Origin: an uncultured Selenomonadaceae bacterium
Lineage (GTDB): Bacteria; Bacillota; Negativicutes; Selenomonadales; Selenomonadaceae
Length of the DNA stretch: 64,000 nt
Reading direction: 5' to 3'
Assembly: GCA_905234195.1 (NCBI GenBank)
Contig: CAJOFR010000008.1
Span: forward strand, 1-64,000
Below are positions 17,393 through 46,009 of this stretch, piece by piece. The translations under genes and the position numbers were made by a program. The notes below the pieces were generated by a model. The model did not search any database and had not been told where the DNA came from. It was given only the letters and a program-made list of their open reading frames with translations. Position 1 is the first letter of the stretch, and every line of letters starts with the position of its first letter.

Positions 17393-21704
<4,312 letters not shown>

Positions 21705-43715: not shown

Positions 43716-43777
43716 TTGCGCGGAAAGGGAATATGTGATAAATTATCAGCGAAAAAATTTTGGAAAGGAAGTTTGTT

Positions 43778-44869
43778 TTGGCTAAAAGGAAAACCATTCC
43801 CGCGATCTCCATCATAATCCCAATGTACAACACGGAAAAATATATCAGCGAGTGTCTTGAAAGTATCCTTGCACAGACTTTTGAGAACTATGAAGTTATT
43901 GTGGTTGACGATTGTTCAACGGATAATAGCGCGGCGATTGTTGAAAGTTATATTCCAAAATTCAGAAGGGGGGGGGTAGACAGACTGAATCTGCTCAAAT
44001 TGAAAGTTAATTCAGGCGGTGCCGGCAAGCCCAGAAATAAAGGGTTGCGCTTTGCTTTGGGCGAATACGTTTTTTTCATGGACAGCGATGACTCGATGAT
44101 GCGCGACGGGTTTGAAAAACTCTACCGCGCCGCCGAAAAATATGACGCCGATGTTATCCACTGTGACAAATGCTATCAAACTGAAGATGAAAATATTCCC
44201 ACAGATAAATCTACCCTTAAAGAAAGGGTAAGGAATGCTGAAATTATTTCATCTCCCACTTATATGCCGGATGATCCGGTTGAGCGGGTGAAAAAATTTA
44301 TGGAATGTAAGTTCAGTTGGGAGCCATGGAATCATCTTATTCGTCGGACTTTGTTGATTGAAAACGACATTAAATTTTCTAACTTGAGTATTGTGGACGA
44401 TTCGCTGTTCAGTTTTTTTGTGATGTGCATGGCGGAAAAAATTATTTGTTTGCCGGAAGCTTTTTACATTTGGAGGAATAGGACGGATTCAAATAGCCGC
44501 GAAATTCTCGACGTTGCGAAAACTGTGCATCGCAGAGCCGGAGATATTTTTAAGCTGATAAACCACCTTGAAAAATTTTGTAACGAATTTGAACCTTTCA
44601 AAGAAAATATGGAATATAGATACGCGATTTTTGACTTTTTCAGAGAAGTGGGCGGGAATCCTCAAATGCTGGAGCTTTATTCAAAAATTCCTGCTCATTT
44701 GCTCGACGGGCTTGTTCGCAAAGAAATTGAACAGATTGAAGAAAAAGACGCATTGACCGCTTTTCTTTTTAGTAAAATGATCGCTCTCAACTTGGGAATT
44801 TTGCAACTTCAAGGTTATATTCAGCAAATGCAAACGCAGAATCAAAAAACTAATGAAAATATTTTTTAA
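43778..44869 (+). CDS. Family 2 glycosyltransferase with in-frame G9 tract
   Basis: The 363-residue protein has a GT-A fold: SIIIPMYNTEKYISECLESIL (part shown), VIVVDDCSTDNS and the DXD-type FMDSDDS that binds the nucleotide sugar. It lacks a transmembrane helix, so it is cytosolic or peripheral. TTG 43778, 7 nt after AAAGGAAG, matches the start of the paralogue. A run of nine G (43968-43976) encodes RRGG at ~64-67; one base gained or lost would truncate the protein. The following gene is a close paralogue. The region is more AT-rich than its neighbours. Acceptor and sugar are unknown; surface glycan synthesis is likely. Confidence 0.9.
   Translation: MAKRKTIPAISIIIPMYNTEKYISECLESILAQTFENYEVIVVDDCSTDNSAAIVESYIPKFRRGGVDRLNLLKLKVNSGGAGKPRNKGLRFALGEYVFFMDSDDSMMRDGFEKLYRAAEKYDADVIHCDKCYQTEDENIPTDKSTLKERVRNAEIISSPTYMPDDPVERVKKFMECKFSWEPWNHLIRRTLLIENDIKFSNLSIVDDSLFSFFVMCMAEKIICLPEAFYIWRNRTDSNSREILDVAKTVHRRAGDIFKLINHLEKFCNEFEPFKENMEYRYAIFDFFREVGGNPQMLELYSKIPAHLLDGLVRKEIEQIEEKDALTAFLFSKMIALNLGILQLQGYIQQMQTQNQKTNENIF
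43968..43976 (+). repeat. Poly-G tract (G9) inside the glycosyltransferase gene
   Basis: Nine consecutive G lie in frame within the catalytic domain. The paralogue has a mixed sequence at the aligned position (KFRVSGVD versus KFRRGGVD), so the tract is not required by the protein fold. Such tracts are typical slipped-strand phase-variation sites. Confidence 0.8.
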
Positions 44870-44887: not shown

Positions 44888-46009
44888 TTGGCTAACAAGA
44901 AAAATATTCCTGCAGTTTCTGTTATAATCCCAATGTACAATATGGAAAAATATATCGATGAATGTCTCGACAGCGTGCTTGGACAAACTTTTGAGGACTA
45001 CGAAGTTATTGTGGTTGACGATTGCTCGACGGATAACAGCGCGGCAATTGTTGAAAGTTATATTCCTAAATTCAGAGTGAGCGGCGTGGACAGGCTCCGG
45101 CTTGTAAAATCTCCGGCAAATTCCGGCGGGCGTCCGGGTGTGCCGAGAAATGTCGGTATGAGACTTTCGCACGGGGAATATCTGATGTTCGTGGACAGCG
45201 ACGACGCAATTACAAAGAGCGCGCTCAAAGAACTTTACAAGGTTGCAAAAGATTTCGACGCCGAAGTTGTGCACTGCGAAAAATTTTTGTCGACTCAAGA
45301 CGAAACTCTTTCGGGGCATAAAGGTTTTCAAGTGATGGCAATGAAAAAAACCGATTTCGTTACGAAACCGACGCTCTTCACTGAAAATCTTGCCGAGCGC
45401 GTGAAAATTTTCAGTTCAGATAAATTTGATTGGAGCTCCTACACAAATTTTGTGCGCAGGGATTTTGTAATGCAGAATGATTTAGAATTCCCCGACTATA
45501 AAGTTTGTGAAGACTCGGTGTTTTCTCTGTACCTGTTGTGCCTGGCAAAAAATTTTGTGCTCACTCCAACTGTCCATTACGTTTATCGAGACAGGCAAGA
45601 CTCCGCGACAAAACCAAATCAATTGTCCGCCGAAGAAAGATTTCACAGATGGGGAGAGTTTTTCTTTCGCGGGATAACTCTTTTGGATAAATTCCTGGAC
45701 AGATTTGCTTTCTTCCGCGAAAATATCGCCTACAAGTACGCGATTTACGATTTGCTGATGAAAACTAACAGCGGTCCCCTCCTCGACGTTTATTCTAAAA
45801 TTCCTTCGGGGCAACTCGACAAATTAATTTCGTGGGAACTTTCAAAAGTCGAAGATAAAACGCCGCTGACGACTTTCTTTTTCAGCAGAATGAATATCTT
45901 TAATTTGAACGTCGTGCGACTTCAAGGTAGTCTTCGTCAAGAGCACTCGAAAGTTAAGCAATTAGAGGAACAGATCCAACAGCTGCAAATCCAACAACTC
46001 CAAAAATAA
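44888..46009 (+). CDS. Family 2 glycosyltransferase, paralogue of the preceding gene
   Basis: The 373-residue GT2 enzyme has VIIPMYNMEKYIDECLDSVL, VIVVDDCSTDNS and the DXD-type MFVDSDDA. A stretch around YEVIVVDDCSTDNSAAIVES is identical to the first enzyme, also nearly so in DNA, while the C-terminal halves diverge. The C-terminus ends in a Gln-rich coiled coil (KQLEEQIQQLQIQQLQ), which could mediate oligomerisation. TTG start after GGAG, 18 nt behind the first gene. A terminator follows. Confidence 0.9.
   Translation: MANKKNIPAVSVIIPMYNMEKYIDECLDSVLGQTFEDYEVIVVDDCSTDNSAAIVESYIPKFRVSGVDRLRLVKSPANSGGRPGVPRNVGMRLSHGEYLMFVDSDDAITKSALKELYKVAKDFDAEVVHCEKFLSTQDETLSGHKGFQVMAMKKTDFVTKPTLFTENLAERVKIFSSDKFDWSSYTNFVRRDFVMQNDLEFPDYKVCEDSVFSLYLLCLAKNFVLTPTVHYVYRDRQDSATKPNQLSAEERFHRWGEFFFRGITLLDKFLDRFAFFRENIAYKYAIYDLLMKTNSGPLLDVYSKIPSGQLDKLISWELSKVEDKTPLTTFFFSRMNIFNLNVVRLQGSLRQEHSKVKQLEEQIQQLQIQQLQK

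Follow-up and report, generated by a model that had tools for sequence, protein, structure and literature searches.

Our analysis of a 64,000-nucleotide stretch of DNA from an uncultured Selenomonadaceae bacterium (the window, contig C8 of the genome) indicates that a run of nine G at 43968..43976 (+), within a gene for a GT2 family glycosyltransferase at 43778..44869 (+), is very probably a translational contingency locus that undergoes phase variation by slipped-strand mispairing. The phase-variable character of the tract had been suggested by the sequence-only reading, and it is now corroborated by a genome-wide excess of G9 runs, a Campylobacter-like mode of tract length, a bias towards glycan genes and the presence of tracts in promoter spacers, as well as by tracts at the same loop in four other species, in intact and split genes, and by paralogues whose tracts differ in length although their flanks are nearly the same.

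The GT2 gene and its G9 tract

The nine G were confirmed at their position and represent the sole G/C run longer than six in the window. They occupy codons 64-67 (R64 G65 G66 V67) of the glycosyltransferase gene, which is intact with G9 and encodes 363 aa, the predicted ON form. The protein combines a Glycos_transf_2 domain (PF00535, E 3e-35) with a DxD motif, both expected of GT2 members, and the aspartates D102, D104 and D105 are invariant across 28 homologues; its AlphaFold2 model reached a pLDDT of 87.7 and a pTM of 0.86, and relatives with solved structures were found in the PDB (3bcv, 5tze and 5hea). The start codon is likely the TTG at 43778, which is preferred over an alternative in-frame TTG at 43760 because it aligns with the start of the adjacent paralogue, and inspection of the upstream region showed a likely ribosome-binding site, GGAAAGGAAG at 43762..43771 (+), in front of it.

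The repeat unit is not a multiple of three and lies within an ORF, so that gain or loss of one or two bases leads to a frameshift and truncation. Translating the possible tract lengths gave 76 aa for G7, 66 aa for G8, 363 aa for G9, 77 aa for G10 and 67 aa for G11, and every one of the short forms (66-77 aa) stops ahead of the DxD motif at 102-105. The TAG immediately 3' of the tract (43977..43979, +), a flank common to 11 of the 27 tracts of G8 or longer in this genome, supplies the out-of-frame stop that terminates the G8 and G11 forms. Both earlier claims on this point, namely that G9 is in frame within a GT2 gene and that slippage by a single base would truncate the enzyme, therefore hold.

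Directly downstream, a tract-free GT2 paralogue of 373 aa (44888..46009, +; 44% aa identity) contains the same loop insertion, filled without a homopolymer; as previously noted from the sequence, its DNA at the aligned codons is non-repetitive (AGAGTGAGCGGCGTG, encoding R-V-S-G-V). In the AlphaFold2 model, residues 63-69 of the G9 gene product connect helix 51-62 to strand 70-74 as a loop with a local pLDDT of 93-95, a 7-column gap spans this loop in the alignment with the solved GT-A protein 3bcv, and 3-7 residues are missing there in most tract-free homologues. Because homologues, the gap in 3bcv and the modelled placement all identify the loop as a length-variable insertion, the tract is tolerated by the enzyme.

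Poly-G tracts across the genome and their flanks

The genome containing the window (labelled G000) is a draft of 2.09 Mb in 47 contigs, 88% complete, and the named organisms closest to it are Selenomonadaceae assembled from metagenomes, mainly those of ruminants. Within the 64-kb window the G9 run is only mildly unusual, with two or more overlapping G8 matches arising in 12 of 100 dinucleotide shuffles, and therefore the case depends on the whole genome. The genome was analysed through a 304-kb sample, through pattern searches and through the sequence surrounding the tracts. In the sample, G/C runs of 4, 5, 6, 7 and 8 bases occurred 674, 105, 10, 0 and 0 times, and geometric extrapolation of this ladder to the whole genome yields approximately 0.4 runs of exactly 9 and approximately 0.5 of 9 or more. 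Against this expectation from base composition, the genome contains 24 runs of at least 9, an excess of about 50-fold, and 27 runs of at least 8, which are distributed as 3, 20 and 4 over lengths 8, 9 and 10 with the mode at exactly 9. Since the ladder collapses before length 7 and yet 24 long runs are present, a chance origin is excluded at the genome level.

An alternative account holds that the tract in the window arose by chance or from the codons for Arg-Gly-Gly-Val and plays no part in switching. It could draw on the unexceptional shuffle result for one G9 per 64 kb, on the divisibility of 9 by three and on the intact gene, but we consider it very unlikely given the genome-wide excess with its gap at lengths 7-8 and given that other species have tracts, including split alleles, at this loop. 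The homopolymer-free loop of the paralogue and the reading phase of the tracts, which varies between genes, also speak against it. Replication strand was also considered; the G run is on the locally G-rich strand in 18 of the 27 tracts, a bias that we judged unconvincing.

Reading frames were derived for all 27 tracts, and the encoded proteins were named by Pfam and NCBIfam. Glycosyltransferase genes with a tract comprise the GT2 gene of the window, GT61, GT92, two GT9, two GT8 and a GT11-GT2 fusion, and further glycan-linked tract genes encode a GDP-fucose synthase (Fcl), three FkbM methyltransferases, FkbH and three hexapeptide acetyltransferase-like proteins. Other tract genes encode the flagellin lysine methylase FliB, an RTX surface protein, a clostripain-family protease, a MaoC-domain protein and a DUF1574-like protein, while a few of the 27 tracts are intergenic or of uncertain placement. 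Thus, multiple loci are biased towards genes for surface structures, with approximately 16 glycan genes among approximately 24 tract-linked genes, versus about 3 of 20 background genes chosen by position (LpxB, a GT1-like protein and a nucleotidyl transferase). At least four genes of the genome are split exactly at the tract: the GT92 gene (G8), the tandem acetyltransferases (G9 and G10) and one GT8 gene (G8), whose tandem neighbour with G10 is in frame.

Several individual loci deserve mention. At L090, tracts lie at the extreme 3' end of the GDP-fucose synthase gene and near the 3' end of the GT11-GT2 fusion (G000:C10:15725-15733 and 19260-19268). L100 (G000:C1:86651-86659) is a G9 in frame inside FliB (NF038110), the ORF of which spans 212 of 373 profile positions, so that a further break downstream is possible. 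L102 (G000:C1:231851-231859) is a G9 located between glyQ and a divergent gene of 464 aa, inside the spacer of a TTGACA-18-TAGAAT promoter; the 464-aa product gave no Pfam or NCBIfam match.

The tracts of this genome share a flank consensus, AAN-G9-TAG, which reaches approximately 3-6 bases to each side. An A is found at position -2 in 23 of 27 tracts (background 26%, p 2e-10), a T at +1 in 21 of 27 (background 18%, p 2e-11), and the 11 cases of TAG directly after the tract compare with a background of 0.7% (p 3e-17); genus-wide, G8TAG occurs 72 times versus 9 times for the reversed control. The signature differs by species, again within about 3-6 bases on either side, with C-G12-CA in G003 and G10 followed by A/T in G017, while the flanks in G002 (CCCAAAC-like-G9-TA) resemble those of the genome studied here, and these species-specific flanks persist once paralogues are removed. 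Protein homology leaves the consensus unexplained, because tracts on both coding strands and in several reading phases are involved, and plain slippage does not explain a species-specific consensus either. Selection of TAG to stop out-of-frame products fails for the promoter tracts, the upstream AA and the flanks of other species; sRNA targeting of G tracts on mRNA is ruled out as a general cause by the occurrence of tracts on both coding strands, and a phage-borne motif was rejected, as viral contigs gave 2 matches versus 6 for the reversed control.

The poly-G tracts of the genus might be more than slippage runs, in that each species examined marks them with short flanks of its own; this would imply that they are made, preserved or mutated by a sequence-specific factor, or by a process generating tracts, that evolves fast. 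We regard this reading as unlikely. That the tracts are primarily sites for such a factor or process (a binding protein, a nuclease or a tract generator), with flanks that diverged by species and with length switching as a by-product or driven by the factor, would agree with the extent and species specificity of the flanks and with the involvement of both coding strands and every reading phase in G000. However, no candidate protein was found, the counts in viral contigs speak against it, the TA after the G run in part fits promoter -10 boxes, and similar biases could arise if certain contexts for slippage or for stops were selected, which leaves this explanation with very little probability.

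Tracts in genus-mates and differences in length

Each of the 37 genomes of the genus searched contains at least one G9+ run. Start-anchored counts in 23 genus genomes range from 3 to 88 G9+ tracts per genome with a median of 15, compared with 0-6 in each of 14 genomes from the other families within the class. The maximum of 88 was found in G003 (2.4 Mb, rated 100% complete; loci L183-L192 and L203-L222), in which the mode was 12 among 40 tracts read and many tracts are located in tandem paralogous gene families. Furthermore, many tracts of the genus lie in sigma-70-like spacers, e.g., TTGACA-N-G10-TATAAT, and the TTGACA-18-TAGAAT type of spacer tract is present in this genome as well as in several genus-mates.

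GT2 homologues from other species were found to carry a tract precisely in the loop that holds the G9 of the window (residue 70 when numbered from the alternative start at 43760). G026 and G019 carry G9 in frame, and the gene is split in CAJOIB (L075) with G8 and in CAJOMO (L085) with G10, so that at this one site the ON state (G9) is represented by three species including the present one and the OFF state (G8, G10) by two. Additionally, poly-C tracts were observed within the first codons of other GT2 genes, in frame at L051, L052 and L044 and out of frame at L120 and L081.

Three tandem DUF1919-type genes in G017 (L237, G017:C45:21000-25800) have tracts of G13, G8 and G10, all presently out of frame. 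On each side of these tracts 56-60 of 60 flanking bases are identical despite the different lengths, and the flanks of the GT8 pair in the present genome are identical at 52/60 and 59/60 bases around G10 and G8. In these paralogues the length of the tract thus changes faster than the sequence around it. Conspecific alleles were sought by DNA in the contig collection and in 22 genus-mates, and none was close enough.

Like most of the genus, this genome encodes MutS, including its FxE mismatch-recognition motif, and MutL. The two genes are located on separate contigs here (G000:C17:4372-4689 and G000:C3:57118-57564), whereas they lie side by side in G003 and in several further families of the class. 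The idea that the tracts stem from lost mismatch repair was rejected, since both proteins are present and FxE is intact in MutS. Campylobacter is not known to possess this repair system, and slippage may be slower here than in Campylobacter because both proteins are retained.

Homopolymers can also cause transcriptional or translational slippage, and slipping of RNA polymerase or the ribosome on the G run might yield full-length and truncated enzyme in constant proportions without DNA variation, for which the retained mismatch repair could be cited. Nevertheless, tracts of coding-strand poly-C and tracts in promoter spacers better fit slippage of DNA, and G13, G8 and G10 differ at the DNA level in paralogues with near-identical flanks, which makes this alternative highly improbable.

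The proposed switch and known systems

In the phase-variation interpretation, slipped-strand mispairing during replication would add bases to or remove bases from the poly-G tract. G9, and by arithmetic also G6 and G12, would leave the GT2 enzyme in frame and ON, while other lengths would halt translation at 66-77 aa, ahead of the catalytic DxD motif, resulting in OFF; cells would hereby toggle at random between presence and absence of one sugar-transfer activity. The affected glycan is most likely a surface or exported one, and its surface exposure is suggested by the gene family. That slippage takes place within a strain, how fast it would be, which glycan it would affect and what advantage it would bring are inferences, and rumen phages, protozoa or host factors would be likely selective agents. 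This genome has approximately 20 or more poly-G loci linked to glycans or the cell surface, of which this locus is one, and the set extends across the genus. Since the assembly is a draft (47 contigs, 88% complete), a single tract length may reflect an error of assembly or a consensus over mixed lengths.

The mechanism itself is already known. What is new, as far as the literature searched shows, is that rumen Selenomonadaceae have such a repertoire throughout a genus while retaining mismatch repair; this literature consisted mostly of papers accessible without subscription, and no phase variation by simple sequence repeats was found in it for Selenomonas or Negativicutes. The interest lies in the genus-wide occurrence of the tracts among rumen commensals and in their species-specific flanks, and this uncultured genus offers a direct test case of an animal commensal that has kept mismatch repair.

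Promoters of the porA/opc type in Neisseria have a homopolymer between the -35 and -10 boxes. The TTGACA-18-TAGAAT spacer tract upstream of the 464-aa gene is arranged likewise, whereas the tract in the window is coding and not in a promoter.

A close parallel in number and length is the phasome of Campylobacter jejuni (PMC6321876), which consists mainly of poly-G/C tracts with a mode of 9 followed by 10 (9 in 53% and 10 in 26% of Campylobacter poly-G tracts), amounts to tens of tracts per genome (18-39 phase-variable genes per strain) and is located mostly inside ORFs. In contrast to C. jejuni, the organism described here belongs to a different phylum, is an uncultured rumen commensal and has MutS and MutL. 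The species-specific flanks are an observation from the present genomes.

In Helicobacter canadensis, ranges of length at poly-G loci, e.g., G8-10, were seen in reads (PMC2823697), whereas our lengths derive from the assembly alone. The distribution is alike: both organisms have tracts within coding sequence, in promoters and at 3' ends, and in glycosyltransferase and methyltransferase genes, and the 3'-end tracts of Fcl and the GT11-GT2 fusion resemble the C-terminal switching tracts of H. canadensis (PMC2823697).
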